Source: Desulfuribacillus stibiiarsenatis (lineage in GTDB: Bacteria > Bacillota > Bacilli > Desulfuribacillales > Desulfuribacillaceae). Taken from it: a stretch of 64,000 nucleotides of DNA. Of the stretch, positions 36,015-58,312 are shown piece after piece. The notes beneath the pieces were generated by a model. The model did no database searches. It saw only the letters and a list, made by a program, of their open reading frames with translations, and was not told the origin of the DNA. The DNA lies in NCBI RefSeq assembly GCF_001742305.1, contig NZ_MJAT01000022.1:248001-312000 (forward strand), given 5' to 3'. The translations under genes were made by a program, and so were the position numbers. How positions within the stretch are numbered: position 1 is the stretch's first letter; the number at the start of each line of letters is the position of its first letter.

Positions 36015-37022
<1,008 letters not shown>

Positions 37023-37042
37023 CGTGTCTATAGGGTGAGATT

Positions 37043-37813
37043 ATGAATTTATGTATTGTACAAGCACGGATGGGCTCAACAAGGTTATCTGGAAAAATTA
37101 TGATGAAGCTAGGTGACCGACCATCTATATATCATACCTACAATAGGATTAGTAAGAGTAAATTGATTGATAATATTGTTATTGCTACTACTACAAATTC
37201 CTCGGATGATATTTTATATGAGTATTGTAAAGAACAATCTATACCTTGCTTTCGAGGTAGTGAAAATGACGTACTAGATAGGTATTATTCTTGTGCTAAG
37301 GAAAATAATGCGCAGAACTCTGACGCAATCATTAGAATCACAGGAGATTGTCCACTCATAGATCCAATTGTAGTTGATGAAATAATTGGTTTTCACGAAG
37401 AATCTAAAGTAGATTATATTAGTAATACGATTGTTCCAACTTTTCCAGATGGTTTGGATGTGGAAGTGCTTTCTTTTGAATCATTAGAATATGCCTGGTT
37501 TCATTCGAAACTAGCCTCTGAACGAGAGCATGTTACCCCTTTTATAAAAAAAAATACGAGTCTTTTTAAGGTGAACAACTATCTTAACAAATGCGACTGG
37601 TCGCATTATCGTTGGACACTAGATGAAATAGAAGATTATAGAATGTTGTCTTGCATTTTCGAACATCTATATAAAGAAAATGAAATATTGAAGACGGAGA
37701 AAATAATTGAATTTTTGGAACATAATCCTCAAATAGCACGTATTAACTCATCAATTGGTAGAGACGAAGGTTATCAAAAGTCTCTAAAAAAAGATTTGTT
37801 ATATTTAGAATAA
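37043..37813 (+). CDS. SpsF-family cytidylyltransferase-like protein
   Basis: A 256-residue GT-A-fold nucleotidyltransferase. IVQARMGSTRLSGKIMMKL is the nucleotide-binding loop of the SpsF/NeuA superfamily, followed by VIATTTNSSDD and CFRGSENDVLDRYY. RITGDCPLIDP contains the metal-binding aspartate. SpsF-type proteins act in spore-coat or surface polysaccharide synthesis; most are assumed to activate a sugar with CTP. A paralogue with the same CP/YRGSENDV pattern lies at 42659. It is 20 bases after pseB. Confidence 0.82.
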   Translation: MNLCIVQARMGSTRLSGKIMMKLGDRPSIYHTYNRISKSKLIDNIVIATTTNSSDDILYEYCKEQSIPCFRGSENDVLDRYYSCAKENNAQNSDAIIRITGDCPLIDPIVVDEIIGFHEESKVDYISNTIVPTFPDGLDVEVLSFESLEYAWFHSKLASEREHVTPFIKKNTSLFKVNNYLNKCDWSHYRWTLDEIEDYRMLSCIFEHLYKENEILKTEKIIEFLEHNPQIARINSSIGRDEGYQKSLKKDLLYLE

Positions 37814-37828
37814 GTTAGGAGATAGATA

Positions 37829-39127: not shown

Positions 39128-39171
39128 CATCTAAATTACAATTATAACGTTATATATTAGGGTGGCATTGT

Positions 39172-40101
39172 ATGAAGATATTAATTACTGGAGTAGCGGG
39201 GCTTCTTGGTGGGAATTTAGCATACTTATTATCAAAAAAATTTAATATTGTTGGAGTCGATCGTAATATAATAAAGATACCTGGTACAACAATCCACTCT
39301 TTAGATTTAAGAGATCGTACCTTAATATATAATTTTATAAAAAAAAACCAACCTTCTGTGGTAGTTCATTGTGCGGCTGCAACAAATGTTGATTGGTGTG
39401 AAGTAAATGAAGAATTAGCTTATATTTTTAACACTGATGTGACAAAACAATTGGTAGATATATGTAATGAACTAAGGATTAAATTTATATTTATATCTAC
39501 TGATGCAGTATTTGACGGGGTTAAAGAAGGACTTTATCGGGAATCTGATGAAGTTACACCTGTAAATGTTTATGGGAAAACAAAAGCACTAGCAGAACAT
39601 GCAGTTATGGAGAATCCCAACAACCTAGTTTTGCGTACTAATATATATGGCTATAATATTAGAGAAAAAAATAGTTTCGGAGAATGGATTCTGTATTCTC
39701 TTATCAATGATATGACTTTGAAAATGTTTGATGATGTATTGTTTTCTCCTATTATAGTAAATGATGTAGCAACCATTATTGAACAAGTTATACTATCCAA
39801 TGGAAAGGGATTGTACCATCTTTGTGGAACGGGAGCTATTTCAAAATATGACTTTGGAGTTCAACTTAAAGAGGTTTTTTCTATAAATACAGGTTCTATT
39901 GAAAAGATTTCGGTTGATCAATTTACCTTTAAAGCAAATCGAACAAAAAACATGGCCTTGAGTAATGAAAAAATTAGTCAACTTTTAAATGTTGAAATTG
40001 CATCACCTATGGAGAGTATCATTAAGTTTAAAGAATTATATGACCAGCATTATCATGAGATACTAAGGGAGTTTATAGGAGGGTCTAGAAATGCTAAATA
40101 A
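39172..40101 (+). CDS. SDR-family sugar reductase, RmlD (dTDP-4-dehydrorhamnose reductase)-like
   Basis: A 309-residue extended SDR with an N-terminal NAD(P) motif ITGVAGLLGGNLA. RmlD-like features are VVHCAAATNVDWCE, FISTDAVFDGV, and the catalytic Tyr-x3-Lys in YGKTKALAEH. The last third (FKANRTKNMALSNEKISQL) also follows RmlD. It probably reduces a keto group on a nucleotide-sugar made by its neighbours; without rmlABC alongside, rhamnose is not the obvious product. It overlaps the following synthase gene by 11 bases. Confidence 0.8.
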   Translation: MKILITGVAGLLGGNLAYLLSKKFNIVGVDRNIIKIPGTTIHSLDLRDRTLIYNFIKKNQPSVVVHCAAATNVDWCEVNEELAYIFNTDVTKQLVDICNELRIKFIFISTDAVFDGVKEGLYRESDEVTPVNVYGKTKALAEHAVMENPNNLVLRTNIYGYNIREKNSFGEWILYSLINDMTLKMFDDVLFSPIIVNDVATIIEQVILSNGKGLYHLCGTGAISKYDFGVQLKEVFSINTGSIEKISVDQFTFKANRTKNMALSNEKISQLLNVEIASPMESIIKFKELYDQHYHEILREFIGGSRNAK

Positions 40102-41167
40102 TGCTATTGCAGTTGGAAATACAATAATATCTGAATACAATCGCCCATACTTTATAGCTGACATAGCAGCTAATCATGACGGTTGTTTAGATCGTGCGTA
40201 TAGACTAATTGAGTTAGCAAAGGAAGCAGGGGCAGACTGCGCTAAATTTCAAAATTTTCAAGCAGCAAAGATTGTTAGTCGCAATGGGTTCGATACACTA
40301 GGGAGTCAGTTATCGCATCAAGCATCTTGGAAAAAATCGGTTTTCGAAGTTTATGAAGATGCCAGTATTCCAGAAGATTGGTCTGCGCTCTTAAAGGCAA
40401 AATGTGACGAAGTTGGCATAGAGTATATGACAAGTCCTTATGACTATCAATCAATTGATGCAACAGATCAATATTTGAATGCTTATAAAATTGGGTCTGG
40501 TGATATTACTTGGGTAAAAATTTTAGAATATATAGCGAAAAAGGACAAGCCAGTATTTCTTGCTACTGGTGCATCTTCCCTTGAAGATGTGCAAAGAGCA
40601 GTAGATGCAATACTAGCACTTAACACTAAATTAGTTATAATGCAATGCAATACGAATTATACAGCAAGCTGTAAAAACTATAATCATATAAACCTTAACG
40701 TATTAACAAAATATCGACAGTTATTCCCAAACTGCTTGTTAGGTTTATCGGACCATACATTAGGGCATGCCACTGTTTTAGGGGCTATAGCGCTAGGTGC
40801 GAGAGTTATTGAAAAACACTTTACTGATGACAACAATAGAATGGGTCCAGACCATAAATTTTCAATGAATTCAAATACATGGAGAGATATGGTAGATCGT
40901 GCAAGCGAATTGTATGTTTCTTTAGGAGACGGGATTAAACGAATTGAAGATAACGAAAAGGAAACTGCTATTGTACAAAGAAGATGTTTATATTATCAAA
41001 AAGATTTAACAAAAGGTCAAATTATCACAGAGGATGATGTTTTCCCTTTGCGCCCCTTTAAACAAAATGGCATTCAACCTTATGAGCAAGACGAAATTTT
41101 AGGTAGGGTATTACAAGTTGATGTTAAGAAAGACGAGCATGTTAAGTGGAGTGATATTAATGCTTAA
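40091..41167 (+). CDS. N-acetylneuraminate/nonulosonate synthase (NeuB/PseI/LegI family)
   Basis: Condenses phosphoenolpyruvate with a six-carbon amino sugar to a nine-carbon nonulosonic acid. A TIM barrel covers residues about 15-280 (YFIADIAANHDGCLDRAYRL, then GADCAKFQNF, GSGDITW and LGLSDHT). The manganese/PEP-binding block VIEKHFTDDNNRMGPDHKFS is clear. A C-terminal SAF (antifreeze-like) domain follows at about 290-355. The ATG follows GGAGGG with 7-base spacing. Which nonulosonate (sialic, legionaminic, pseudaminic or another) cannot be told by eye; a PseB upstream favours the pseudaminic side, but no PseC or PseG is recognisable. Confidence 0.9.
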   Translation: MLNNAIAVGNTIISEYNRPYFIADIAANHDGCLDRAYRLIELAKEAGADCAKFQNFQAAKIVSRNGFDTLGSQLSHQASWKKSVFEVYEDASIPEDWSALLKAKCDEVGIEYMTSPYDYQSIDATDQYLNAYKIGSGDITWVKILEYIAKKDKPVFLATGASSLEDVQRAVDAILALNTKLVIMQCNTNYTASCKNYNHINLNVLTKYRQLFPNCLLGLSDHTLGHATVLGAIALGARVIEKHFTDDNNRMGPDHKFSMNSNTWRDMVDRASELYVSLGDGIKRIEDNEKETAIVQRRCLYYQKDLTKGQIITEDDVFPLRPFKQNGIQPYEQDEILGRVLQVDVKKDEHVKWSDINA

Positions 41168-41699
41168 AGGTGAATCTATTAATCTCCAAGCGATAGAAAG
41201 AGAAGATTTGAAACTACTTATGTTATGGCGTAATTTGCCGAATTTCAGAAAGCATTTTAGAGAATATCGCGAGATTAATATGGCAATGCAGGAAAATTGG
41301 TTTACTACAAAAGTATTAAATGATCCGAATACACTCATGTTTTCTATCCGAAGAAATTCTGATAGTGAACTTTTGGGTTGTTGTGGATTGTGCTATATTA
41401 ACTGGATTAATCGACATGCCGACTTATCTTTATATATTGGTTGGGAAGAAACATATATTGATGAGGTCGGATATGCAGAGGAATCCTGTAATCTTCTTTT
41501 TAATTATGCTTTTAATGAATTAAACTTAAACAAGATTTGGACAGAAATCTATGAGTTTGATACTAAGAAAATTGATTTATATCAAAAGCTTGGTTTTCAA
41601 TTAGATGGGAAGTTACGACAAAATTATTATTATAATGGACAGTGGTGGGACTCACTATTGTTTTCTGTTTTAAAAAAGGATTGGGCTTCGGAAAAATAG
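41160..41699 (+). CDS. GNAT-family N-acetyltransferase (RimJ/RimL-like)
   Basis: A 179-residue acyltransferase. The N-terminal INLQAIEREDLKLLMLWRN is the RimJ/L-type opening; GCCGLCYINWINRHADLSLYIG is the substrate strand pair. The acetyl-CoA region with LNKIWTEIYEFDTKKIDLYQ leads into KLGFQLDGKLRQNYYYNGQWWD. In nonulosonate loci such enzymes (PseH-like) acylate an amino group on the precursor. A longer frame opens at 41118 inside the synthase gene, but the ATG at 41160 has GGAG 8 bases upstream. It overlaps the preceding stop by 8 bases. Confidence 0.8.
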   Translation: MLKGESINLQAIEREDLKLLMLWRNLPNFRKHFREYREINMAMQENWFTTKVLNDPNTLMFSIRRNSDSELLGCCGLCYINWINRHADLSLYIGWEETYIDEVGYAEESCNLLFNYAFNELNLNKIWTEIYEFDTKKIDLYQKLGFQLDGKLRQNYYYNGQWWDSLLFSVLKKDWASEK

Positions 41700-41721
41700 C
41701 AGACTATTAGGATGTGATTGC

Positions 41722-42627
41722 TTGGAAGCTTTATTAGATAAAATATGTTTAGGAACAGCACAGTTTGGAATGAGATATGGCGTTGCTAACAAAAGTGGGC
41801 AGCCAAATCAGAAAGATATAGATAGTATTTTAGATTTTTCATATAATTCTGGTATTCGTTATTTAGATACAGCTGAAGCGTATGGTCAATCAGAAAAGTG
41901 TATAGGGAATTTTTTGCGTAACAATCCAAGTAAGAATTTTAGCTTGGTAAGCAAGTATTCATTCGAATCCTCAATAAATTCTTGCGATACGAAACAAATA
42001 CCTAGTATGTTAGAGGCTAAGATACAAAAATCTTTAGATAAGTTGAACATAGCAACAATTGATGGAATTATGCTTCATAATCCTAGCGATATGTATATCG
42101 ATAATGTTATAGAGGCATTGATAACAATGAAGACAAAAGGATACGTAAGTAATATTGGTGTATCCGTATATACGACTACGGATGCATTATATGCTGTGAA
42201 TCATCCATCGATTGACTGTATTCAAATACCATATAATGTGCTAGATCGAAGCTTGAATTCTACCCACTTTTTTTCAATAGCAGCACAAAAAAAGGTTACC
42301 GTTTTTGCAAGAAGTATATTTTTACAAGGATTATTACTTATGAATTCTGAGGAAGTACCTGATGCTTTATTAGGTGTAAATCCATACATTCAAAAGTTAG
42401 ATGAATTATCGAATAAACTAGGGATAAAACGTTATGAATTAGTATTAAACTATGCGTTGGCGAATCCAGGAATTGATTACATTGTCATTGGCATTGAACA
42501 TATTGATCAGTTAAAAAAATTATATAGCACTATAAGAAAAATAGAAAATTGTGACTTCACAGGACAAGTAAATCAAATGGAAATAACTAATATAGATCCT
42601 AGAATAGTCAGGCCTTATATGTGGTAG
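41722..42627 (+). CDS. Aldo/keto reductase
   Basis: A 301-residue (alpha/beta)8 NAD(P)H-dependent oxidoreductase. KICLGTAQFGMRYGVAN starts the barrel. The catalytic Asp and Tyr lie in YLDTAEAYGQSEKCIG, the lysine in LVSKYSF, and the histidine in GIMLHNPSD. The C-terminal cofactor region reads IDYIVIGIEHIDQLKK. In sugar islands, members of this subgroup (COG0667) reduce keto-sugars. The start is TTG at 41722 with AGGATGTG upstream. The 3' gap of 31 bases leads to a second SpsF-like gene. Confidence 0.85.
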   Translation: MEALLDKICLGTAQFGMRYGVANKSGQPNQKDIDSILDFSYNSGIRYLDTAEAYGQSEKCIGNFLRNNPSKNFSLVSKYSFESSINSCDTKQIPSMLEAKIQKSLDKLNIATIDGIMLHNPSDMYIDNVIEALITMKTKGYVSNIGVSVYTTTDALYAVNHPSIDCIQIPYNVLDRSLNSTHFFSIAAQKKVTVFARSIFLQGLLLMNSEEVPDALLGVNPYIQKLDELSNKLGIKRYELVLNYALANPGIDYIVIGIEHIDQLKKLYSTIRKIENCDFTGQVNQMEITNIDPRIVRPYMW

Positions 42628-42658: not shown

Positions 42659-43447
42659 ATGTTTGGGAACTCTGAGAAAAAGATATGCGCTACTATTGAA
42701 GCGAGAATGACTTCTACAAGATTGCCAGGAAAAGTAATGTTAGATATTGCTGGGAAACCAGTTATTCAACATATCATAGAGCGATTAAGGAGAAGTAAAT
42801 ATTTGGACGAAATTGTAGTAGCGACTACTACGAACTATGAGGACGATGTTCTTGTTAAACTATGTGAAGAAATTGGATGTAAATATTATCGAGGCAGTGA
42901 AAATGATGTATTACTACGAGTATTACAAGCAGCACAATCAGTCAGTGGGGACATAATTGTAGAGATAACTGGAGATTGTCCATTTGCTGACTGGAGACAT
43001 GTAGACACTTTAATAGCTAAATTTTTCTCTGGTGATTACGATTATGTTTCAAACACAATTGAGCGAACCTTTCCAGATGGATTTGATGTTCAGGTATTTC
43101 CAACATCAGTGCTTAATGAAGTCAATACTCTGACGAGTTGTCCAGTAGACCATGAACATGTCTCTTTATTCATTTATTCCAATGCTGATCGTTACAAATT
43201 ACTTAATTGGTATGCACCATCCAATCTTAATTATCCCGATATAGAAGTTACTTTAGATACTAAGGAAGACTATAAGTTAATTTCAACAATCTATGAGGCG
43301 CTTTATTATAAAGATCAAGATTTTTCGGCTGATGAAGTTGTTGAGTATCTTTTACAAAACCCGCAACTATTAAAGATAACTGAAACGATAACTAGAAAAA
43401 ATCCTTATCAAGAAAAAGCAATGAGAGGGACTGAATATGATAGATGA
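42659..43447 (+). CDS. Second SpsF-family cytidylyltransferase-like protein
   Basis: A 262-residue paralogue of the gene at 37043. IEARMTSTRLPGKVMLDIAGKP is the nucleotide-binding loop, CKYYRGSENDVLLRV the signature and EITGDCPFADW the metal site. The start follows AAGGAGGGATAGG. Two SpsF-like genes 5 kb apart suggest either two sugars to be activated or a duplication followed by specialisation. It overlaps the following oxidoreductase by 11 bases. Confidence 0.82.
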   Translation: MFGNSEKKICATIEARMTSTRLPGKVMLDIAGKPVIQHIIERLRRSKYLDEIVVATTTNYEDDVLVKLCEEIGCKYYRGSENDVLLRVLQAAQSVSGDIIVEITGDCPFADWRHVDTLIAKFFSGDYDYVSNTIERTFPDGFDVQVFPTSVLNEVNTLTSCPVDHEHVSLFIYSNADRYKLLNWYAPSNLNYPDIEVTLDTKEDYKLISTIYEALYYKDQDFSADEVVEYLLQNPQLLKITETITRKNPYQEKAMRGTEYDR

Positions 43448-44438
43448 TCTACCAAGGTATAATACGCTCATAGTAGGTGCTGGAAACATTGGAGCTTTTT
43501 ATCATACTCCGTCTTCTACGGATGTCGTTACTCATGCCCAAGCCTATTGTAAACACCCAGATAAATTTCAATTGGTTGGCTTTGTTGACACAGATGTAAT
43601 GAAAGCTAAAAAGGCAGCTGCTAAATGGGACACAAATGCGTTTGATTCCCTTCAAAATGCATTTGATAAGTACCCTATAGATATCGTTTCCGTTGCGGTT
43701 CCAGATGAGTATCATCATATCGTAATGAGCGAACTATTAAAATACGATGTGAAGCTTATTTTCTTAGAGAAACCAATTGCAGATTCGAAGCAAAATGCCC
43801 GTATGATTATGCACCAATATCTACCTGTTGAAACACCCGTTCTAGTCAATTACAGTCGAAGGTTTACTAAAGAGTTTCAAGTTCTGAAAAATAGGATTCA
43901 GTCAGGTGAGTTTGGGGATTTTTTAAATGGAACCGGGTACTATGGGAAGGGGTTGATCCATAACGGATCACACCTGATAGACCTATTATTTTATTTATTC
44001 AACAATGTTACGGTTGACAATCAATACATCGGTTCAATTTATGACTATTATGAAAACGATCCCAGTATCAGCGCTACACTAAAGATTAACAACAAACCAT
44101 TTCTATTACAAGCTATTAACTGTCAGTTGTATGAAATTTTTGAAATAGATTTGTTTTATGAAAAAAAGCGTATAACCATTACTGATTTAGGTTTTGTTTT
44201 AAAGGAGTACGATGTGTTACCTTCACCGTATTTCAAAGGATATGTGAATTTAGTAGAAAGCATTACAAGGAAAACAACGCTTGGACAAGCTTTAGATAAT
44301 GCAGTTATTAACATATATGAGCATTTAACTATGCACAAAGGTATTATCTGCTCTCTAGAAGATGCCTACAGGTCTTTTGAACTGTGCCATAAAATTATGG
44401 AAGGATATAAGGATGAAAAAAATACTGCTATATTCTAG
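43437..44438 (+). CDS. Gfo/Idh/MocA-family oxidoreductase
   Basis: A 333-residue NAD(P)-dependent dehydrogenase. The N-terminal Rossmann motif is IVGAGNIGAFYHTPSS, with the substrate-side motif LIFLEKPIADSKQNA (the EKP lysine) at the domain junction. The C-terminal beta-sheet domain opens NYSRRFTKEFQVLKN. Members oxidise or reduce sugars and inositols, including UDP-sugars in surface-glycan loci (WlbA-like). It overlaps the SpsF-like gene by 11 bases and the following gene's ATG by 26. Confidence 0.85.
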   Translation: MIDDLPRYNTLIVGAGNIGAFYHTPSSTDVVTHAQAYCKHPDKFQLVGFVDTDVMKAKKAAAKWDTNAFDSLQNAFDKYPIDIVSVAVPDEYHHIVMSELLKYDVKLIFLEKPIADSKQNARMIMHQYLPVETPVLVNYSRRFTKEFQVLKNRIQSGEFGDFLNGTGYYGKGLIHNGSHLIDLLFYLFNNVTVDNQYIGSIYDYYENDPSISATLKINNKPFLLQAINCQLYEIFEIDLFYEKKRITITDLGFVLKEYDVLPSPYFKGYVNLVESITRKTTLGQALDNAVINIYEHLTMHKGIICSLEDAYRSFELCHKIMEGYKDEKNTAIF

Positions 44439-45546
44439 AGATCCTGGTGCTGCTAACGTTATTATTCCAATATATTCAGAATTACTAAAGAGCTCGTATG
44501 TTGTTAAGCTTTTGGGGAAGGATGCAGCAATCTCTAAATACAAGCTATTTAATATATATAACTATACGAATGTTAGTAACAGTACAGAGGACACTAGTGT
44601 TGATTATTGGATTAATTATTTGAAAGATCACAAATTTGATTTTGTGATTACTGGAACTGGTTCTGAAGAGTATTCAGATAAATATTTGTGGAAAGCATGT
44701 GAGCATGTAGGAATACCTAGTCTTGCCATATTGGATCAATGGATGAATTATGGAGTAAGGTTTTCAAAATATCATGCTACTCAACTGCACTTGTATGAAA
44801 ATGATAACGAACACATATTTCAACCCTCATATATTTTTGTTATGGATAGTGAAACAAAAGAAGAAATGGTGAGGATAGGTTTTGATGAAAAAAAGATAAT
44901 AGTAACGGGGCAGCCTTATCTTGATTTTCTTAATCGCTTTAAAAGTACTATTGATTATAACAATATATTACATTATAAAGAAAAGATAAATTGTCTCAAT
45001 GAAGATTTAGTAATTGTATTCGCATCCGAGAATATTACAAAAACTGAAGTTGACTTCAATAATGGTTATATAGGTTATACAGACAAATCAATTATTGAAG
45101 AATTAATACTGGCAATACAAAAAAATAATCGTAAATACAACAAAAAAATAAAAATCATTATAAGACGTCATCCTAACGAACACATAGATGTGTACTCAGA
45201 TATAATATCTAACTTTGGGGACGAGCATGTTAATATTGAAATTGACAATGAATCAAATTTGTTTGAACTTATACTCGCAGGGGACTGTATTGTTGGCATG
45301 TCTTCCATGTTATTAATTGAAGCATCTTTATTAGGAAAGTATATAATGAGCATTCAAATTGGTATATCTAAAGAAAACCCATTTGTACTACATCAAAAAG
45401 GCTTATTACAATCAATTACAAGCCGTAAAGAACTTGAAGAACAAATTGATCTGGTTCTAAATAATCAATATTTTAAAGGGGCAAACGTAACTGGTCATAT
45501 TGATGCGATTGAACGAGTAATTAATAAATTGGAGGAATTGCTATGA
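44413..45546 (+). CDS. Uncharacterised GT-B-like protein
   Basis: A 377-residue protein with no confident family. The N-terminus KKILLYSRDPGAANVIIPIY looks like an acceptor-binding loop. The C-terminal half carries KIIIRRHPNEH, then DCIVGMSSMLLIEASLLGK, a pattern shared with CDP-glycerol transferases and capsular GT-B enzymes (His-Pro followed by Ser-Ser/Glu). A longer frame begins at 44362, but AAGGA ends 7 bases before the ATG at 44413. It overlaps the preceding gene by 26 bases and the following DegT gene by 4. A role as a transferase for the island's sugar is an inference. Confidence 0.6.
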   Translation: MKKILLYSRDPGAANVIIPIYSELLKSSYVVKLLGKDAAISKYKLFNIYNYTNVSNSTEDTSVDYWINYLKDHKFDFVITGTGSEEYSDKYLWKACEHVGIPSLAILDQWMNYGVRFSKYHATQLHLYENDNEHIFQPSYIFVMDSETKEEMVRIGFDEKKIIVTGQPYLDFLNRFKSTIDYNNILHYKEKINCLNEDLVIVFASENITKTEVDFNNGYIGYTDKSIIEELILAIQKNNRKYNKKIKIIIRRHPNEHIDVYSDIISNFGDEHVNIEIDNESNLFELILAGDCIVGMSSMLLIEASLLGKYIMSIQIGISKENPFVLHQKGLLQSITSRKELEEQIDLVLNNQYFKGANVTGHIDAIERVINKLEELL

Positions 45547-46850
45547 GTATATTGGCAATCAATGGTGGAAAGAAAGTCAGAACAACATTATTCCCAGCTT
45601 ATAAAATCATTGATAAAGAGGAAAAGGAGATAGTGTCCGAAGTTTTGGAATCAGGGATATTATCTAAATTTCTCGGTTGTTGGGATGAGGATTTTTATGG
45701 TGGTCCACAAATAAGGGCGTTAGAAGAAGAGTGGGCGTCCTATTTTGATGTTAAACATGCGATTGCAGTTAATTCCGCTACATCTGCATTGTATTGTGCC
45801 ATGGGGGCAGCCGGTGTTGGTCCTGGTGATGAGGTGATTGTTTCCCCTTATACTATGTCTGCATCGGCAACTGCTCCACTTGTATATAATGCGATTCCGA
45901 TTTTTGCTGATATTGAAGAGGATTATTATTGTATTTCAGCAGAATCAATTAAAAATAGAATTACAGATAGAACAAAAGCAATTATTGTTGTTGATATATT
46001 TGGGTTACCATATGATGCAGAACGAATTAACGCTATTGCAAAGGAACACAACCTCATTGTTATAGAAGATACAGCGCAGGCTCCGTTTGCTAAATACCAA
46101 GGTAAGTTTGCTGGTACACTCGGCGACATTGGAATCTATTCATTAAATTATCATAAACATATTCACTGTGGCGAAGGGGGCATTATAGTAACTGATAATG
46201 ATGATCTTGCAGAACGGATGAGATTGATACGAAATCATGCAGAAGCTGTAGTTGAAGGTATGGGATTTCATACGTTAGTGAATATGGTAGGCTTTAATTA
46301 CCGAATGACAGAAATAGAGGCTGCTATTACAAGGATGCAATTGAAGAAGTTAGCACCGTTAGTTGAAGAGAGACAACGTCTAGTTAAATATCTAAATAGT
46401 AAATTACAAGGGATTCCTTGTTTAGAATTGCCAAACGAGAGAATAGAAAGTGAACATGTGTATTATGTTCACCCGATTAAATATAAACAGGAAGTTGCTG
46501 GTATTTCGAGAAGTACGTTTATTAATGCGGTTAAAGCTGAACTAATGCCAACAGAATTAAGAGAAAGCGAAGGGGTTCTTATTTCTGAAGGATACGTTAA
46601 ACCGCTATATCTCCAACCCCTGTATCAAAAATTAACAGCTTACGGTGACAAAGGCTGTCCATTTAACTGTAATTATTATAATAAGCCAATCGTATATAAA
46701 GAGGGTTTGTGTCCTGTAGCTGAAAAAATGCATTATCATGAGCTGTTTACCCATGAATTAATTCGTCCACCAATGACTTATAAAGACTTGGATGATGTCG
46801 CCAATGCATTCATAAAAGTGTGGGAGAACAGGCGGGAATTACATGAATAG
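45543..46850 (+). CDS. DegT/DnrJ/EryC1/StrS-family sugar aminotransferase
   Basis: A 435-residue PLP enzyme that aminates a keto nucleotide-sugar. INGGKKVRTTLFPAY opens the protein, AVNSATSALYCAMGAAG binds PLP phosphate, VIEDTAQAPFAKY supplies the stacking Asp/Gln region, and the Schiff-base lysine is K205 in NYHKHIHCGEGG. A cysteine-containing insertion (KGCPFNCNYYNKP, then GLCPVAEKM) near the C-terminus is longer than in ordinary family members. With PseB in the island it could take the PseC role, though its sequence is not typical PseC. It overlaps the next gene by 8 bases. Confidence 0.85.
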   Translation: MSILAINGGKKVRTTLFPAYKIIDKEEKEIVSEVLESGILSKFLGCWDEDFYGGPQIRALEEEWASYFDVKHAIAVNSATSALYCAMGAAGVGPGDEVIVSPYTMSASATAPLVYNAIPIFADIEEDYYCISAESIKNRITDRTKAIIVVDIFGLPYDAERINAIAKEHNLIVIEDTAQAPFAKYQGKFAGTLGDIGIYSLNYHKHIHCGEGGIIVTDNDDLAERMRLIRNHAEAVVEGMGFHTLVNMVGFNYRMTEIEAAITRMQLKKLAPLVEERQRLVKYLNSKLQGIPCLELPNERIESEHVYYVHPIKYKQEVAGISRSTFINAVKAELMPTELRESEGVLISEGYVKPLYLQPLYQKLTAYGDKGCPFNCNYYNKPIVYKEGLCPVAEKMHYHELFTHELIRPPMTYKDLDDVANAFIKVWENRRELHE

Positions 46851-47391
46851 TAGAATTTTTATTAAAGGACAAGACGTATATTTAAGGCACTTGCAACTCA
46901 CAGATATCGAAGGAAACTATTTGCATTGGTTTGATAATGAAATTGTTTGTAAATATAATGAACATCATAGATATCCATATTATAGTGAACAGCTTGAATC
47001 TTATATCAAAAATTTAGCAGGAAATCACAATAATCTTGTGTTTGCAATTATTACTAATGAAGAAAATGAGCATGTAGGAAATATTTCTATTCAAAACATT
47101 TGCTATATTAACAGAAGTGCTGAAATCGCAATTATAGTTGGTGAACGAAAATATTGGGGGAAAGGCCATTCTAGCGAAGCCATGCAGTTAATAATAAGCC
47201 ATGCATTTTACACGTTAAATTTACATCGCTTATATTGTGGCACGCATTCCCAAAATGTTGGAATGATTAAGTTAGCACATAAGCTAGGTTTTCAACAGGA
47301 AGGGATACGAAGAAAAGCTATTTATAAAAATGGGGATTATTCTGATATAATAGAATTTGGATTATTAAAGGACGAATATAATGGACTATAA
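46843..47391 (+). CDS. Second GNAT-family N-acetyltransferase
   Basis: A 182-residue RimJ/RimL-like acetyltransferase. VYLRHLQLTDIEGNYLHWF is the start. The acyl-CoA pyrophosphate loop GERKYWGKGHSSEAMQL is well formed, and the family ending LNLHRLYCGTHSQNVGMIKL leads to KLGFQQEGIRRKA. Relative to the GNAT at 41160 it is closer to typical PseH-like enzymes. It is coupled by an 8-base overlap to the DegT gene, so the two may aminate and then acylate the same sugar carbon. Confidence 0.85.
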   Translation: MNSRIFIKGQDVYLRHLQLTDIEGNYLHWFDNEIVCKYNEHHRYPYYSEQLESYIKNLAGNHNNLVFAIITNEENEHVGNISIQNICYINRSAEIAIIVGERKYWGKGHSSEAMQLIISHAFYTLNLHRLYCGTHSQNVGMIKLAHKLGFQQEGIRRKAIYKNGDYSDIIEFGLLKDEYNGL

Positions 47392-47414
47392 CTAAGATGA
47401 TTGGAGAGATAAAC

Positions 47415-48599
47415 GTGGTTCAAAAAAGAAAACCACTATTTTCAAACATAAAGTATTGCACTCGTTGCTGTATGCCAGAAACAGAAGAAGATATCGTATA
47501 TGATGAAGTAGGAATCTGTCAAAGTTGTCAGTCTTCCGAACAAAAAATGCATATTAATTGGGTAGAACGGGAAAGAAAGTTACAAAAAATCCTTAATGAA
47601 GCAAAGGAAAAAGCGGGTAATAATTACGACTGCATCATACCGATTAGTGGTGGGAAAGATAGTACGTTTCAACTACATGTATTAACTAAAATATACGGTA
47701 TGAAACCATTAGCCGTAACATTTAATCATAATTGGTATAGCGAAACTGGTTGGTACAATTTACAAAATTCTTTAGAGAAATTCAATTTGGATCATATAAT
47801 GTATACACCTAACAGGTCTTTGGTAAACAAATTAGCAAAGCAATCACTTGAAAAGATTGGTGATACATGTTGGCACTGCCATGCGGGAGTAGGTTCATTT
47901 CCTTTGCATATAGCAGCTAAGTTTAACATCCCACTATTGATATGGGGAGAATCCATAGCAGAAGCAAGTGGACGTGCTTCATATTATAATCCTGTTCATA
48001 AATTCGACAGGGAGTATTTCACTAAGGTGTCAGCCAAAATAAAACCAGATAAAATGGAATCTGAAGAATTATCTGCTAAAGATCTACATCTTTTTGAAGT
48101 TCCCACAGAAGAAGAATGCGAAAAGGCAGGAGTATTTGGCATTCATTTAGGTGATTTTATTTTCTGGGATGATGAAAGGCAAACGGAATTCGTTAAGGAA
48201 CATTACGGCTGGCGTGAAACGCAGATGGAAGGGACATACAAGCGATACAAAAGTGCGGAATGTATTATGGCAGGAATGCACGATTTTACCTGCTATCTGA
48301 AGCGTGGGTTTGGCCGAGCAACATTTCAAGCTTGTGTTGACGTTCGGAATGGCTTGCTAACTAGGGAAGAAGGGTTCGAACTTATTGAGAAACATGACCC
48401 GGAAAGACCGGAAGCGCTAGACTATTTTCTTAAGATTACAGGCATGTCAGAAGATGACTTTCATGAAATAATGAGCATCCATCGTTTGCAAAAACTGCGA
48501 GATATAGATATGCCAATTAAAGAGAAACTCCATAAAAACCAAGAGAAAATTATGCCTTATCCAGAACAAATTATTGAGAAACTAAACCCTACTAAATAA
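47415..48599 (+). CDS. N-acetyl sugar amidotransferase (PseA/WbpG/LegB-like)
   Basis: A 394-residue PP-loop ATPase that adenylates an acetamido sugar and replaces oxygen with ammonia to give an acetamidino group. An N-terminal zinc-ribbon-like pair (YCTRCCMPET, then GICQSCQ) comes first. The PP-loop SGGKDS is at residues 78-83, and cysteine-rich CWHCHAG follows. A start at ATG 47397 is possible, but GTG 47415 has GGAGAG 6 bases upstream. The family often relies on HisH/HisF-like subunits for ammonia; none lies in this window, but an amidase gene follows directly. Confidence 0.88.
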   Translation: MVQKRKPLFSNIKYCTRCCMPETEEDIVYDEVGICQSCQSSEQKMHINWVERERKLQKILNEAKEKAGNNYDCIIPISGGKDSTFQLHVLTKIYGMKPLAVTFNHNWYSETGWYNLQNSLEKFNLDHIMYTPNRSLVNKLAKQSLEKIGDTCWHCHAGVGSFPLHIAAKFNIPLLIWGESIAEASGRASYYNPVHKFDREYFTKVSAKIKPDKMESEELSAKDLHLFEVPTEEECEKAGVFGIHLGDFIFWDDERQTEFVKEHYGWRETQMEGTYKRYKSAECIMAGMHDFTCYLKRGFGRATFQACVDVRNGLLTREEGFELIEKHDPERPEALDYFLKITGMSEDDFHEIMSIHRLQKLRDIDMPIKEKLHKNQEKIMPYPEQIIEKLNPTK

Positions 48600-48633
48600 T
48601 TACCGATATAGTATTAAATTTGGGGGAAACGAA

Positions 48634-49989
48634 ATGAAGAGTTTTGCTGACCATAGTATATTAGAGTTACTTGCCTTATTAAAGAATAAAGAACTTACGG
48701 TTCTAGACATAGTAGATATATGTATAAACAGAAATAATGTGTCGAATTACGCTAACAAAGCGTGGGCCTATTATGACCAAGACATAATAATGAAACAAGC
48801 ATATTATGTGCAGGACAAATATAACTTAATAGAAAAAAAACACAGTTTGTTTGGCATTCCAATTGGAGTAAAAGATATATTCAATACTATAGATTATCCA
48901 ACGCAAATGGGAAGTCCTTTATGGAAAGGATTTACTCCTGGTAATGATGCGCGTATAGTATATAATATCAAAAATGCTGGTGGAATTATAGCTGGAAAAA
49001 CTGATACTGCGGAGTTTGCAGTACATGCACTTAATAGCACGGTGAATCCTCATAATGAAGATAAAACTCCAGGAACTTCATCAAGTGGTTCGGCTGCACT
49101 TGTTGCATTAGGAGTTGTTCCTGTTGCTCTGGGTTCGCAAACAGCTGCATCCATTGTTCGGCCCGCCAGTTTTTGTGGTGTTTATGGATGTAAACCTTCT
49201 TTTGGTACCATACCAAGAACAGGTGTATTAAAGACCGCAGATACACTAGATAGTATAGGGTACTTTACAATTCATTTACAAGATATTCGACATATTTTTG
49301 ACGTATTAAGAGTGCGTGGTGAGAACTATCCGATTTGTCAGGAAGCTTTCACAGATGAAAATAGACAACTGCCTCCTATAAAAAGACCTTGGAAAATAGG
49401 TTTTGTTAAAGGTTATGTATGGGATTACGCGGAGGAGTATGCTAAGAATTCTATAAATGAGTGGGTGCAAAAACTTGAAGCCAGTGCTTCTGAGTTCTAT
49501 GTTGAAGAAGTGGAATTGCCTAAAAGCACTTTTATAGCTCATCAAACTCATTCTGACATTTATCATAGAAGCTTATCTTACTATTTCAAAGAAGAATATA
49601 AAGAAAGCCAAATTTCTGATATTATGAGAAACATCATGGGCGAAGGAACTAAAATTACAACTGAGAAATATTTGGCTGCACTAGAACAACAAGTTTTAAT
49701 ACAAAATGACATGGATGAATTACTGTGTGAATATGACGTTATTATCTCATTAAGTACTGCTGGGTCTGCTCCTGCGAGAGAAGAAGTAGAAAAACCAGAC
49801 AATGGGTTGATTTGGACATTGGCGCATCTACCAGTCATTAGTGCCCCGGTATTCTTATCTCCGAACAAGATGCCATTTGGTGTACAATTAGCATCAAGGA
49901 AATATAGTGATTATAAACTTATGGAATTTTTAAAACGGTTAAACGAATTAGATTTAGTCCCAGACAAATCAAATCCAGTACTAGAATAG
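48634..49989 (+). CDS. Amidase-signature hydrolase (GatA/AtzF-like)
   Basis: A 451-residue Ser-cisSer-Lys amidase. The lysine is K80 (GVKDIF). The glycine/serine loop GTSSSGSAALVA is at residues 147-158 with S149/S150, and the nucleophile is S173 in SQTAASIVRP; spacing matches the family. Two family-conserved sites are changed: the loop GGSSGGS is GTSSSGS, and GGSIR is AASIV. It hydrolyses amides to acid and ammonia. Placed directly after the sugar amidotransferase, it could supply ammonia or trim an amide on the sugar. The start follows GGGGGAAACGA. Confidence 0.85.
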   Translation: MKSFADHSILELLALLKNKELTVLDIVDICINRNNVSNYANKAWAYYDQDIIMKQAYYVQDKYNLIEKKHSLFGIPIGVKDIFNTIDYPTQMGSPLWKGFTPGNDARIVYNIKNAGGIIAGKTDTAEFAVHALNSTVNPHNEDKTPGTSSSGSAALVALGVVPVALGSQTAASIVRPASFCGVYGCKPSFGTIPRTGVLKTADTLDSIGYFTIHLQDIRHIFDVLRVRGENYPICQEAFTDENRQLPPIKRPWKIGFVKGYVWDYAEEYAKNSINEWVQKLEASASEFYVEEVELPKSTFIAHQTHSDIYHRSLSYYFKEEYKESQISDIMRNIMGEGTKITTEKYLAALEQQVLIQNDMDELLCEYDVIISLSTAGSAPAREEVEKPDNGLIWTLAHLPVISAPVFLSPNKMPFGVQLASRKYSDYKLMEFLKRLNELDLVPDKSNPVLE

Positions 49990-52645: not shown

Positions 52646-53626
52646 ATGTCTACTAATATTAAACCCAATGCTAATTTTCATTCATTATCGAATACATCAG
52701 TCCATGATAATATGTCTCCCAAATACCTTGAATACAGAAGAAAATGGATTGATAATCCAAAACAAATGATTCTAGAAAAATTTCCGTTGCACCTAGATAT
52801 AGAATCCACCAATTTGTGTAACTTGCGGTGTACTTTTTGTGACAAGCAGTCTAATATTGAAAAGGACGGCTTTGGACGAATGGACTTTGGGCTTTATAAG
52901 AACATTATTGACGAAGCAAAACAGTTTGGCTTATATAGTATCAAGTTAAGCTATCGGGGAGAGCCATTATTACATCCTAAGATATTTGATATGATTACCT
53001 ATGCCAAAGAAAGTGGTGTTATAGATATTTATTTCAACACAAACGGTATGCCTTTATCCGATTATACGATAGATAGGCTCATTGACTCTGGGATTAATCG
53101 AATTTCTGTATCGGTTGAAGGAACAGATCCTATCGCATTTGAAGAAGCGAGAGTAGGGGCTAGTTTTGACAAGATTAAAGAAAACTTAGTAAAATTACTA
53201 GCAAAAAGAAAAGAAAGAAACTCAGAATACCCCAAAATACGCATTCAGACTGTGCTACTTCCTGGAATTGATATGGAAGAATATAAAACGTACTGGGAAT
53301 CATTTGGTGATGAAGTAGCTGCCATTGACTATAAAGATGAGAATCAAGTTAAGCCAGGTAAAGTGGCTAAGGACTGGGCTTGTCCTCAATTATGGCAACG
53401 AATGACAATCGGTTGGGATGGGACTATCTTCATGTGTAACAATGATGACCATAATCGGATTAAATTAGGTAATGTTGCGAATCAAACAATTTATGGTAAT
53501 TGGAACGGAACAACTATGAATGAAATTAGGGATAAGCACAAGAACGGACTATCGCATTGTGTTCACGCATGTAATGAATGCCCATGGAGAACGGCACAAT
53601 TAACTAAGTTAGGTGGTACTATATGA
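52646..53626 (+). CDS. Radical SAM protein with SPASM domain
   Basis: A 326-residue iron-sulphur enzyme. The [4Fe-4S] cluster cysteines C58-C62-C65 are in LCNLRCTFC. SAM-binding elements are RGEPLLHPKIFDMI and VSVEGTDP. The C-terminal SPASM cysteines appear as CPQLW, MCNNDD and CVHACNECPWR. Enzymes with this layout modify peptides, heptose-like sugars or dehydrogenate C-H bonds. In a sugar island it could epimerise or deoxygenate a nucleotide-sugar or act on an acyl substituent; the substrate is unknown. The start follows AAGGAGTAGTTAAATC and the stop overlaps the next ATG by 4 bases. Confidence 0.85.
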   Translation: MSTNIKPNANFHSLSNTSVHDNMSPKYLEYRRKWIDNPKQMILEKFPLHLDIESTNLCNLRCTFCDKQSNIEKDGFGRMDFGLYKNIIDEAKQFGLYSIKLSYRGEPLLHPKIFDMITYAKESGVIDIYFNTNGMPLSDYTIDRLIDSGINRISVSVEGTDPIAFEEARVGASFDKIKENLVKLLAKRKERNSEYPKIRIQTVLLPGIDMEEYKTYWESFGDEVAAIDYKDENQVKPGKVAKDWACPQLWQRMTIGWDGTIFMCNNDDHNRIKLGNVANQTIYGNWNGTTMNEIRDKHKNGLSHCVHACNECPWRTAQLTKLGGTI

Positions 53627-54540
53627 AGAATAAAATAGTAATTACTACCTCCAGCTTTGCAGAATACGATAAACAGCCGTTAAACATCTTAAAAGAGACT
53701 TATGATCAAGTTGAACTAAATCCTTATGGAAGAAAACTTACAAAGGATGAACTAATAGATTTTGCGCAAGATGCAACAGGTATTATAGCGGGAACTGAAA
53801 ATTACTCTGGCGATGTTTTAGAAAAACTTCCAAAACTGAAAGTCCTATCACGTTGTGGAACGGGAATGGATAATGTTGATATTAGTGCAGCTAATGAAAA
53901 AGGCATTATTGTATGTAATACACCTGATGCACCAACTCTACCAGTGGCAGAATTAACTATTGGACTAATGTTGGATTTATTAAGAAATATTTCAATATCA
54001 AATTCTAATGTTAAAAATAGTAATTGGCTGAAACACATGGGTCGGCTACTACAAGGTAAACGTGTAGGTATCATCGGATATGGACGTATAGGGAAAAAAG
54101 TCGCTGAACTATTATTGGCTTTTGAAGCGGAAGTTGCTTATTATGATTTATTTACTCATAATAAGGCCCCAATTAGTTATATGTCGTTAGATGAATTATT
54201 AGAGTGGGCAGATATTATTACTCTTCATTGCAATGCATCTAAAACGGGTGAATATTTATTAGGCGAAAAAGAGTTAAAAAAAATGAAAAGGGATGCCATG
54301 ATTATTAACACAGCACGTGGGGAATTAATTGATGAGGAAGCCTTGTATGCTACTCTTATAAATAATCAATACTTTAGTGCTGCTTTAGATGTTTTTGCGG
54401 AGGAACCCTATAATGGAAAACTAATAGAATTACCTAATATTATTGTCACCCCGCATATTGGTTCCTACGCTAGAGAGAGCAGAGTAGCAATGGAAATAGA
54501 AGCTGTGCATAATTTATGTAAAGGTTTAATAAATCTATGA
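53623..54540 (+). CDS. D-isomer-specific 2-hydroxyacid dehydrogenase
   Basis: A 305-residue NAD-dependent enzyme of the phosphoglycerate dehydrogenase type. LSRCGTGMDNVDI and PVAELTIGLMLDL belong to the catalytic domain; RVGIIGYGRIGKKVAELLL binds NAD. The catalytic Arg lies in NTARGELIDEEAL, the Glu in FAEEP and the His in TPHIGSY. No ACT domain is present, so it is not a regulated serine-pathway PGDH. In the island it may produce a hydroxy acid (for example glycerate-like) used as an N-acyl group, which is an inference. It overlaps both neighbours by 4 bases. Confidence 0.88.
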   Translation: MKNKIVITTSSFAEYDKQPLNILKETYDQVELNPYGRKLTKDELIDFAQDATGIIAGTENYSGDVLEKLPKLKVLSRCGTGMDNVDISAANEKGIIVCNTPDAPTLPVAELTIGLMLDLLRNISISNSNVKNSNWLKHMGRLLQGKRVGIIGYGRIGKKVAELLLAFEAEVAYYDLFTHNKAPISYMSLDELLEWADIITLHCNASKTGEYLLGEKELKKMKRDAMIINTARGELIDEEALYATLINNQYFSAALDVFAEEPYNGKLIELPNIIVTPHIGSYARESRVAMEIEAVHNLCKGLINL

Positions 54541-55229
54541 TTATCTTATTATCACATCCTATATCAATGGTTAATCCGGCATATGGCAATCCAACAAAAA
54601 CTTTGGATTGGAAACAAACGAAAAGCATTCCAAAAGGCGATAGTTGTAACTCATACTCGATTGTTATCGAGAACCATATAGGAACCCATGTTGATGCCCC
54701 TGCACATTTTTTTGAAGGCGGTAGAAAAATTGCTGAGTATGAACCGGCTTATTGGCATTTTAAAAACGTGCAAATTATAGATGTGGCATTAGAAGAAGGA
54801 CAATTGTTGTCAAAAATTGAAATAGAACATGAAGTTAAAGCTGACATAGAGATATTATTATTAAGATCAGGTTGGTCGAAAAAAAGAGGAGAACTATCAT
54901 ATAGCAACTGTAATCCAGGCATATTGCCAGAGGTTGCAACATGGCTTAGAACGGATTATCCGAATGTTCGATGCTTAGGAATGGACTGGATCTCAGTATC
55001 TTCTTACATGCACCGTGACATTGGAAGACAAGCTCACTGCGCTTTCCTCAATCCTGATGAACATGGAGAACCAATATTATTACTTGAGGATATGTTCATT
55101 CCTTTAGATAATTACAAGCTAGTAGAAGTTTTGGTTGCACCATTTATGATAGACTGTATCGACAGTGCCCCTGTTACAGTCTATGGAATAAGGAGAGACT
55201 CCGATGACGATAAAAAAGAAGATAGCTAA
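54537..55229 (+). CDS. Cyclase-family (kynurenine-formamidase-fold) hydrolase
   Basis: A 230-residue metal-dependent hydrolase of the PF04199 cyclase family. The signature HIGTHVDAPAHFF spans residues 47-59 with H47, H51, D53 and H57 as metal ligands, followed by ILLLRSGWSKKRG. GMDWISVS and the C-terminal VEVLVAPF block fit the family. Members hydrolyse formyl-amides, isatin or cyclic imides. A role in removing a formyl or lactam group from a sugar intermediate is possible but unproven. It is coupled to its neighbours by 4- and 26-base overlaps. Confidence 0.82.
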   Translation: MIILLSHPISMVNPAYGNPTKTLDWKQTKSIPKGDSCNSYSIVIENHIGTHVDAPAHFFEGGRKIAEYEPAYWHFKNVQIIDVALEEGQLLSKIEIEHEVKADIEILLLRSGWSKKRGELSYSNCNPGILPEVATWLRTDYPNVRCLGMDWISVSSYMHRDIGRQAHCAFLNPDEHGEPILLLEDMFIPLDNYKLVEVLVAPFMIDCIDSAPVTVYGIRRDSDDDKKEDS

Positions 55230-56043
55230 ATGGTCAATACAAACGGCTATAAAAGAACAAAACTTACAAGGGTATTATGATAAAATTAAAGAGATAGTAC
55301 CTGATTTATCAAATCAATACACGAGAGAAAATGTAGATTACGACTCCTTTATAGAATTAAAAATAAGGGCTCAACATTCGTTTCAATGCAAAATGATGTT
55401 TGATGCTATTAAGCTCATTACGCGTACCACTAAACAAAATTCAGGAACTGTAGTAGATATAGGTGATTCTTCAGGAAACCACATGATTTACTTAAGAAAC
55501 TTATTAAAAGATGAATATAAAATTCAAACATTAAGTGTAAACTTAGATCCTATTGCTGTTGAAAAAATAAAAAATAAAGGACTTCCAGCATTACTAGTAA
55601 GGGCTGAAGAACTTACTTTAGATAATACAGATATCATAATGTACACATCATTTGAAATGTTAGAGCATCTTCATAATCCTGCGCTATTTCTAAGAAGATT
55701 AGCAGTAAAAGGTGAAGGAGAATATATTTTAATAACTGTTCCGTATGTAAAACATAGTAGAATAGGGCTCCATTCATTAAGAAACAAAAATCGAGATAAC
55801 AGTACATATGCTGAAACAGAGCATATATTCGAACTTAGTCCAAATGATTGGAACTTATTGTTCTTGCACTCAGGATGGGAAGTTGTTTTTAAAGAAATAT
55901 ATTTGCAGTATCCCAAAAAGCTTTTAATTAAAAATATAATGTCGAACATCTGGAAACAGAAGGATTTTGAAGGTTTTTATGGGGTACTATTAAAGAAAAA
56001 TCTCAGTGAATCAAATAAATACATGGATTGGGAAGAATTGTAA
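55204..56043 (+). CDS. Class I SAM-dependent methyltransferase
   Basis: A 279-residue protein with a Methyltransf_11/23-like core. Motif I is VVDIGDSSGNHMIYL (with Ser-Ser in place of the usual Gly-Ala), then LSVNLDP and the post-motif IMYTSFEMLEHLHNP. The N-terminal 80 residues are helical and lysine-rich. It probably O- or N-methylates a glycan substituent. The start ATG follows AAGGAGAGACTCCG and lies 26 bases inside the preceding gene. Confidence 0.75.
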   Translation: MTIKKKIAKWSIQTAIKEQNLQGYYDKIKEIVPDLSNQYTRENVDYDSFIELKIRAQHSFQCKMMFDAIKLITRTTKQNSGTVVDIGDSSGNHMIYLRNLLKDEYKIQTLSVNLDPIAVEKIKNKGLPALLVRAEELTLDNTDIIMYTSFEMLEHLHNPALFLRRLAVKGEGEYILITVPYVKHSRIGLHSLRNKNRDNSTYAETEHIFELSPNDWNLLFLHSGWEVVFKEIYLQYPKKLLIKNIMSNIWKQKDFEGFYGVLLKKNLSESNKYMDWEEL

Positions 56044-56061
56044 GAGGTTGGGGATGTATAA

Positions 56062-56796
56062 ATGAGGAATAAAATACTTATCGTTGGAGCAAGTAGCGAT
56101 ATTGCAAAGCCATTGATTGAGCACCTGTTAAATTATGACGATATGCACATAGGGCTTCATTATAGTTCCAATTATAATAGTATTGCTAACTATGAAGAGA
56201 ATGATAAGTGTTCTATTTTTCAGAAGACTTTAAACACTGAAAAATCGTGCCAACAATTAGTCGATGAGTTTGTCAATGCTGCAGGTGGAATTGACTGCAT
56301 GATACAATTGTGTGGCAATGTAACGAATCCGGTTCATTGGGAGTCACTTACGGAAGAAGATGTATTTCAGGATTTGCAAATAAACTTAGTTGTTCCTTTT
56401 TTTCTAGCTAAGAGATCAATTCAATATATGAAACTTAATGGTGGTAGTATAGTACTAATGAGTAATGCAGGTGCGAAATTTGGTGGTGGAAGTAATTCGT
56501 TGTTTTATGGCATTTCAAAGGCTGGTATTGACCGATTGACTAAAGGACTTGCCAAAGACTGTGCAAAATATAACATTTTAGTTAATGCTGTAGCACCAGG
56601 TTTTATTGATACAAAGTTTCATAGGGATGTATTGAATCGCAACGATGAAGAACTAAAGAAAAGAATTGATATGATACCTCTTAAAAGAGCAGGAAAGAGT
56701 TCGGAGGTTGCTAGTACTATTATATTTCTTTTATCAGACGGTGCAAGATTTATCACTGGTGAAGTAATTACTATTAGTGGTGGCGATTGGTTATAA
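56062..56796 (+). CDS. Classical short-chain dehydrogenase/reductase
   Basis: A 244-residue SDR. The cofactor motif is VGASSDIAKPL, a TGxxxGIG variant, and IQLCGNVT stands in place of NNAG. The catalytic set is SNAG in the serine strand and Tyr-x3-Lys in YGISKAGIDRL, and VAPGFIDTKF and FITGEVITISGG complete the fold. Its shape is FabG/PtmA-like, and PtmA-type SDRs occur in legionaminic-acid loci. Substrate is presumably a keto-sugar. The start follows AGGTTGGGGATGTATAA. Confidence 0.85.
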   Translation: MRNKILIVGASSDIAKPLIEHLLNYDDMHIGLHYSSNYNSIANYEENDKCSIFQKTLNTEKSCQQLVDEFVNAAGGIDCMIQLCGNVTNPVHWESLTEEDVFQDLQINLVVPFFLAKRSIQYMKLNGGSIVLMSNAGAKFGGGSNSLFYGISKAGIDRLTKGLAKDCAKYNILVNAVAPGFIDTKFHRDVLNRNDEELKKRIDMIPLKRAGKSSEVASTIIFLLSDGARFITGEVITISGGDWL

Positions 56797-56818
56797 TATC
56801 ATTTTTGGAGATGATAGA

Positions 56819-58312
56819 ATGAAAGTATTATTTGTATATCCTAACGCAACACTACAAAATCCCCCACCTGTTTCTCTAGCTATCTTTTATGCATTATTGA
56901 AAGATATAAATAATGTTGAAATAAAGATTTTTGACACAACATTATATAGCCAAGATGAGAATAACTCAGACAAGATAAAGGAAAAAAATTTACAAGTAAG
57001 GCCTTTTGATTTCTCTGATAGGGGTATAAGATTAATCAATAATAATGTATTCGATGATTTCAAAAAGATGGTAGATGATTATCAGCCTGATTTAATCGCT
57101 TTATCAGCGAATGAGGTAACCATATCACTAGGTATAGATCTATTAAAAGTAGTTAATAAAAATAACACATTTATTCTAGTTGGTGGGGTATTTGCAACGT
57201 TTGCCCCTAAGGTGTTATTAGCGTATGACTTTATAGATGCTGTTTGTGTAGGTGAAGGCGAGAAAGTATTATTGGAACTCGTAGAAAGAATAGCACAGCA
57301 AAAAGATTTAACGAATATTGAGAATTTATGGATAAAAAAAGATGGGACAATTGTGAAAAACAAGTTAAGACCATTGGTTGATTTAAACAAACTGCCTTTA
57401 CCGAATTATGATATTTTTGATGAGGCAAGGTTTTACAGGCCGATGGCGGGAAAAGTCTGGAGGCTATTTCCCATAGAAACAAGTCGTGGGTGTCCATATG
57501 GTTGCACATATTGTAATTCTCCTTCACAAAAACAGCAATATATAAAGTCTGGGCACACTAATTTTTTTAGAAAGAAAAGTATAGATACTATAAATAGAGA
57601 GATTAAATACCTAATAGAAAAATACAATGCTGAATACATCTATTTTTTAAGTGATACTTTATTGTGTTTAAATGACCGAGAGTTTAATGAGTTTTGTGAA
57701 ATGTACAGTCAATATAAGCTTCCTTTTTGGTGTCAAAACAGGCCGGAAATGGTTACCTTAGAAAGAATGACAAGATTGAAAGATATAGGTTGCTATAGAA
57801 TGTCTATAGGATTGGAACATGGGAATGAAGAGTTTAGAAGGAAGATATTAAATAAAAAAGTAAGCAATGAAGTTATTGTAAAAGCATTTGATATATTAGA
57901 TCAAGTTGGCATTCCAGTTTCAGTAAATAATATTATTGGTTTTCCAGGTGAGAATAGGGATTTAGCATTTGACACAATTCGTTTAAATAGACAAATTAAG
58001 TTCGACACATCTAATGCGTATGCCTTTACTCCTTTCCGTGGAACGCCTTTGTATGAAGAATGTGTCGAAAAAGGGTATATCGCACCTGATAAATCGTTGC
58101 ATATTATTACCAAAGGTTCGTCGCTGGACATGCCTGGTTTTACAAAGAGTGAAATAGACGGACTAATTAAAACATTTGCATTATATGCACGAATGCCTGA
58201 AGAATACTTTCCGTTAATTAAATTAGCTGAGGATGATTCACCAGTAGGTGAGCAAATGTTTAAAGAGTTAAGTGATATATATTCTAAATTGTATTTTAGT
58301 GAGAGTGATTAA
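56819..58312 (+). CDS. B12-binding-domain radical SAM protein
   Basis: A 497-residue enzyme. Residues about 1-180 resemble a cobalamin-binding Rossmann domain (VLFVYPNATLQNPPP, then LVGGVFATFAP), without the DxHxxG motif. A radical SAM core follows: CPYGCTYC (C225, C229, C232), MSIGLEHGNEEFRRKIL and NNIIGFPGEN. The C-terminal tail is about 90 residues. The class performs methyl transfers to unactivated carbon, ring contractions or thiolations. Whether cobalamin is bound cannot be seen. A longer frame opens at 56777, but the ATG at 56819 has GGAGATGATAGA upstream. Confidence 0.85.
   Translation: MKVLFVYPNATLQNPPPVSLAIFYALLKDINNVEIKIFDTTLYSQDENNSDKIKEKNLQVRPFDFSDRGIRLINNNVFDDFKKMVDDYQPDLIALSANEVTISLGIDLLKVVNKNNTFILVGGVFATFAPKVLLAYDFIDAVCVGEGEKVLLELVERIAQQKDLTNIENLWIKKDGTIVKNKLRPLVDLNKLPLPNYDIFDEARFYRPMAGKVWRLFPIETSRGCPYGCTYCNSPSQKQQYIKSGHTNFFRKKSIDTINREIKYLIEKYNAEYIYFLSDTLLCLNDREFNEFCEMYSQYKLPFWCQNRPEMVTLERMTRLKDIGCYRMSIGLEHGNEEFRRKILNKKVSNEVIVKAFDILDQVGIPVSVNNIIGFPGENRDLAFDTIRLNRQIKFDTSNAYAFTPFRGTPLYEECVEKGYIAPDKSLHIITKGSSLDMPGFTKSEIDGLIKTFALYARMPEEYFPLIKLAEDDSPVGEQMFKELSDIYSKLYFSESD

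Follow-up and report, generated by a model that had tools for sequence, protein, structure and literature searches.

Acetamidino sugars are found on flagella and O-antigens, and the ammonia source of the amidotransferases that form them is poorly understood. The accessible part of PMC10607449 names no donor for the enzyme of structure 8WEX. The stretch of 64,000 nucleotides of Desulfuribacillus stibiiarsenatis analysed here (the window) contains such an amidotransferase gene followed by a gene for an amidase, and raises the question of whether the second enzyme feeds the first. The first-pass annotation had offered this as a hypothesis, namely that the pair is a unit for ammonia transfer. The two genes and the cassette upstream of them are the following:

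42659..43447, + strand: SpsF/KdsB-like cytidylyltransferase at the cassette head (sub-cut-off KdsB matches; 62% identical to the L035 gene in the same place)
43437..44438, + strand: Gfo/Idh-type oxidoreductase (sub-cut-off NCBIfam match to UDP-GlcNAc 3-dehydrogenase; place conserved)
44362..45546, + strand: weak UDP-GlcNAc 2-epimerase/surface-carbohydrate family protein (TIGR04396, PF02350 below cut-off; place conserved)
45543..46850, + strand: DegT-family sugar aminotransferase (PF01041, 287 bits; orthologues 59-65% identical in the same slot)
46843..47391, + strand: GNAT acetyltransferase, with a proposed role in N-acetylating the amino sugar ahead of amidination (immediately 5' of WbuX in the nine loci with upstream DNA)
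47397..48599, + strand: N-acetyl sugar amidotransferase of the WbuX/NASAT family (TIGR03573, 8WEX match, motifs)
48634..49989, + strand: amidase-signature enzyme with a Lys80-Ser149-Ser173 triad, the proposed ammonia source (PF01425, triad, WbuX adjacency)

The amidotransferase has 400 aa and an ATG start. The pair had earlier been placed from 47415; an amidotransferase is indeed encoded there, but its true start lies 18 bases earlier, at 47397. The protein matches TIGR03573 with 359 bits against a cut-off of 203.2, over model positions 2-343 of 344. It carries the PP-loop SGGKDS (residues 84-89) and a tetracysteine motif (C21/C24/C41/C44, pattern CxxC...GxCxxC), both of which are kept in the WbuX relatives that cover these positions. 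The nearest solved structure is that of Legionella LpNASAT (8WEX, E 6e-43), which has the amidotransferase family, the PP-loop and the tetracysteine motif in common with the window enzyme, and whose four cysteines bind zinc according to the accessible part of PMC10607449. Unlike the window pair, LpNASAT is described there with neither an ammonia partner nor an amidase. Judged by score and motifs, the window amidotransferase is a member of the WbuX family, and an acetamidino sugar is its predicted product.

The amidase (451 aa; PF01425 match of 237 bits) begins 34 bases past the amidotransferase (48599 to 48634), as previously noted. The catalytic residues that the first-pass annotation had picked out, K80, S149/S150 and S173, are all present and invariant across ten relatives, and the flanking motifs are altered as it had said (GTSSSG vs GGSSGG; QTAAS-IVRP vs the usual [DE]xGGS-IRxP). 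By comparison of motifs, these alterations are of the malonamidase E2 type and no peculiarity of the window amidase; Ala172 in place of Gly beside the nucleophile occurs in the window copy alone among the ten relatives, which show 41-50% identity to it. The boundary of the family is clear, since its members score at least 363 bits against the window amidase, and the nearest PDB relative 176. An AlphaFold monomer made with the alignment of ten sequences was of low quality (pLDDT 63, core below 50). It may be added that one locus (L055, genome G788) has a WbuX almost the same as in L050-L053 but a far more divergent amidase in the trees, as if a homologue had replaced the amidase alone.

The amidase was searched for at E <= 1e-55 in 795 genomes, 398 from the window's phylum and 397 from that of Sulfurospirillum, and was found in 9 of them. 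A scan of the collection added one Oligoflexia MAG and also returned Sulfurospirillum arcachonense; the ten amidase genomes span the window's phylum, Campylobacterota and Bdellovibrionota. Each of the ten distinct genomes has the amidase gene directly 3' of WbuX on the same strand. The first-pass annotation had suggested counting how often the two genes are adjacent or fused: adjacency held at 10/10 loci, but no natural fusion was present at any of them. It had also set against its own proposal the case of an amidase occurring mostly outside amidotransferase loci, and the opposite was found, every copy adjoining a WbuX gene. Chance adjacency is ruled out by the same conservation. WbuX itself exceeded its cut-off in 109 of the 795 sampled genomes, and co-occurrence of the two genes among these 795 gave p about 1e-8, uncorrected for kinship.

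Of the seven Campylobacterota loci, six have the WbuX stop and the amidase start overlapping by four bases (ATGA) and one has them overlapping by 8 bases, which suggests translational coupling, an arrangement common among subunits of one complex. In the WbuX tree the ten amidase-linked proteins form a single clade with a support of 100, every member of which has the amidase. As the ten cases are one clade, the pair may have originated a single time and been retained for long since. No description of an amidase partner of PseA, WbpG or WbuX was found in the open-licence literature.

The upstream cassette (Gfo/Idh, epimerase-like, DegT and GNAT genes) is kept in the nine loci with upstream DNA, the fast-evolving epimerase-like gene being undetected in two of them. 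The series of oxidoreductase, aminotransferase, acetyltransferase and WbuX parallels known acetamidino-sugar pathways. Genes of the Pse type are also present in the window (PseB, NeuB-like, cytidylyltransferases), and in Sulfurospirillum a set of Pse genes shares the amidase locus with flagellin and a probable Maf gene. On the basis of gene neighbourhood, the sugar is probably of the nonulosonic-acid type and placed on a surface glycan. As regards the surrounding island, positions 36036-42627 hold genes for PseB, a cytidylyltransferase, a glutamate-semialdehyde-aminomutase-like protein, an RmlD-like protein, NeuB, a PseH-like protein and an aldo/keto reductase. This set resembles the O-antigen island of Legionella serogroup 6, which includes HisF4 and HisH2 (PMC3694923). 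At 52646-58312 follow, in succession, a SPASM radical SAM protein, a phosphoglycerate-dehydrogenase-like protein, a cyclase-family protein, a methyltransferase-like protein, an SDR and a B12-binding radical SAM protein, likely a further unusual sugar pathway.

To place the amidase among the possible partners of WbuX, we examined 116 WbuX neighbourhoods, thirty of which had only 1.5 kb of flank. HisH together with HisF adjoined WbuX in 60 cases, the amidase in 10, HisH only in 1 and none of these in 45; there was no locus with both HisH/HisF and the amidase. Close DegT relatives were then sought in Campylobacterota and yielded eleven further cassettes. The order Epi2-Oxr-DegT was followed by GNAT-WbuX-amidase at 9 loci and by GNAT-(methyltransferase)-WbuX-HisH-HisF at 4 Campylobacterota loci, and at 7 other Campylobacterota loci it stood without WbuX and without any partner. 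From this comparison of cassettes, the amidase tracks WbuX rather than the core sugar genes, and stands where HisH/HisF would otherwise be. Such an exclusive alternation beside WbuX is what replacement of the ammonia supply predicts. Among the HisH/HisF-type cassettes, L158, L159 and L161 have, between GNAT and WbuX, a methyltransferase-like gene whose N-terminal part is rich in cysteine. In a Campylobacterota genome (G608), a 794-residue open frame with a WbuX domain (L135:2744-5125) adjoins HisH/HisF, and is possibly a fusion protein.

Among the nearest known systems are those with HisH/HisF, namely WbpG/HisH2/HisF2 of the Pseudomonas aeruginosa O-antigen, the Campylobacter PseA locus and a Sphingomonas cluster (PMC11340318). 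In the Sphingomonas cluster, which has the same enzyme types, transposon hits fell in WbuX, HisF2 and HisH alike (PMC11340318). As in the window, the PP-loop enzyme of these systems is encoded amid oxidoreductase, aminotransferase and acetyltransferase genes, and a gene dedicated to ammonia supply (proposed in the window) adjoins WbuX. The window locus differs in having an amidase-signature gene where HisH/HisF stand, and a WbuX of a separate clade.

The absence of HisH/HisF from the window, as reported at first pass, was confirmed and extends over the remaining 9.7 kb to the contig end. The whole genome (99.9% complete) contains one HisH and one HisF, on another contig beside HisA; since HisA adjoins them, this lone pair is the his operon. 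The possibility that such genes might turn up elsewhere in the island, also raised in the first-pass annotation as a counter-argument, was not realised, the genome being without an extra copy; a HisH/HisF partner elsewhere in the island is ruled out by these whole-genome searches. Adjacent HisH/HisF paralogues of the WbpG type were found at none of the ten amidase loci. The other amidase genomes had a single HisH beside HisA or no HisH that could be found, with the exception of G707, where a second HisH adjoins a second, different WbuX.

That some enzymes of this kind work without partners, as had been remarked, is borne out by the 45 of 116 WbuX genes with neither amidase, HisH nor HisF nearby. 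Three genomes (G228, G135 and G149) have WbuX and no HisH at all. Because of these partnerless and HisH-free cases, WbuX apparently copes without a linked glutaminase, and a linked ammonia supplier is apparently not always required, as far as gene content tells. About 30 WbuX genes form a well-supported clade, nearly all without adjacent HisH/HisF or amidase (L036, L038, L087-L088, L093, L095-L109, L111, L113-L118, L121 and L125); the window's own phylum contributes two of them, and the WbuX of G228, one of the genomes without any HisH, also belongs to the clade.

By profile score, malonamidase E2 is the closest solved relative of the window amidase (264 bits), ahead of the best GatA (218), and GatA is among the nearest amidase families. 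The window amidase has the SSSGSA and QTxxSxxRPA motifs in common with malonamidase E2, including the Arg three residues past the nucleophile. This R176 aligns without gaps with Arg158 of malonamidase E2, which we take to be its carboxylate-binding residue, and is K in 1/10 relatives. Malonamidase E2 is known as a free-standing hydrolase and, unlike the window amidase, is not known to have a sugar amidotransferase partner. Against the GatA equivalog model TIGR00132, the window protein scored 203 bits, below the cut-off of 481, and a separate, ordinary GatA is encoded elsewhere in the window genome. In a weak alignment, no invariant Arg stood opposite R358 of S. aureus GatA, the residue that binds the glutamine carboxylate; an invariant Asp389 came near GatA D425, where the alignment is gapped. 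Since malonamidase E2 is closer and no invariant Arg faces R358 in that alignment, glutamine is a candidate substrate at most.

GatA exemplifies the release of ammonia by an amidase fold and its passage through a tunnel to a partner (PMC4027206). In GatCAB, as proposed for the window pair, an amidase-signature enzyme with a Ser-cisSer-Lys triad provides ammonia to a separate ATP-using enzyme. GatCAB differs in its partner, GatB, and in having GatC; in the window the partner would be a PP-loop sugar enzyme, and GatC is lacking.

Taken together, alternation with HisH/HisF, adjacency in 10/10 genomes and the lack of extra HisH/HisF copies support, on comparative-genomic grounds, the ammonia-transfer unit as predicted from sequence. 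We consider it likely that the amidase has replaced HisH/HisF and provides WbuX with ammonia freed from a small amide, in the manner of GatA with GatB. WbuX and amidase would then constitute a two-part sugar amidine synthase, in which the Ser-cisSer-Lys site of the amidase would hydrolyse a small carboxamide, be it glutamine, asparagine or an acid amide resembling malonamate, and the ammonia would pass to the WbuX partner, transfer and complex formation both being putative. With ATP (yielding AMP and PPi), WbuX would activate a nucleotide-linked amino sugar at its N-acetyl group, and would swap the oxygen of that group for NH to give the acetamidino sugar. The amidase would thus stand in for HisH, the glutaminase, as well as for HisF, the channel.

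Other readings of the pair were weighed against this one. The amidase might act on the sugar or the WbuX product as a clade-specific tailoring enzyme, by N-acyl removal or exchange or by trimming of the amidine. Its constant association with a single WbuX clade, possibly one with a distinct product, would agree with such a role, as would the varied amides taken by amidase-signature enzymes and the nature of malonamidase E2, a small-acid amidase and not a glutaminase. Yet, for a given set of core sugar genes, the loci with HisH/HisF and the loci without WbuX are precisely those that lack the amidase, and tailoring, which predicts no exclusion with HisH/HisF, is disfavoured for that reason; we regard it as rather unlikely.

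Still less probable is that this WbuX clade uses free cellular ammonia, with the amidase loosely connected (for instance by freeing ammonia locally from scavenged amides, with no complex) or serving another role in the island. The many WbuX genes without a linked partner, some in genomes lacking HisH, speak for this, but the strict order on the same strand, the start/stop overlaps and the retention of the pair despite 41-50% identity suggest a tighter functional link. A catalytically idle amidase, kept as a structural partner of WbuX, would fit Ala172, but this change is confined to the window copy, and the triad and its surrounding motif are invariant in the ten proteins, so that we find this reading very improbable. 

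A bolder form of the main reading, which we hold to be slightly less likely than the ammonia release itself but still more likely than not, is a second, independently evolved ammonia module, in which a channelling complex of amidase and WbuX displaces HisH/HisF and parallels GatA with GatB.

Loci in which HisH/HisF have naturally given way to an amidase, downstream of shared sugar genes, offer a simple system for studying the origin of ammonia and whether it is channelled. If the proposal is true, the amidase fold would be seen to donate ammonia in a new setting besides GatA. The comparison of loci suggests that the WbuX-amidase pair is a second, independent ammonia feed for sugar amidine chemistry.
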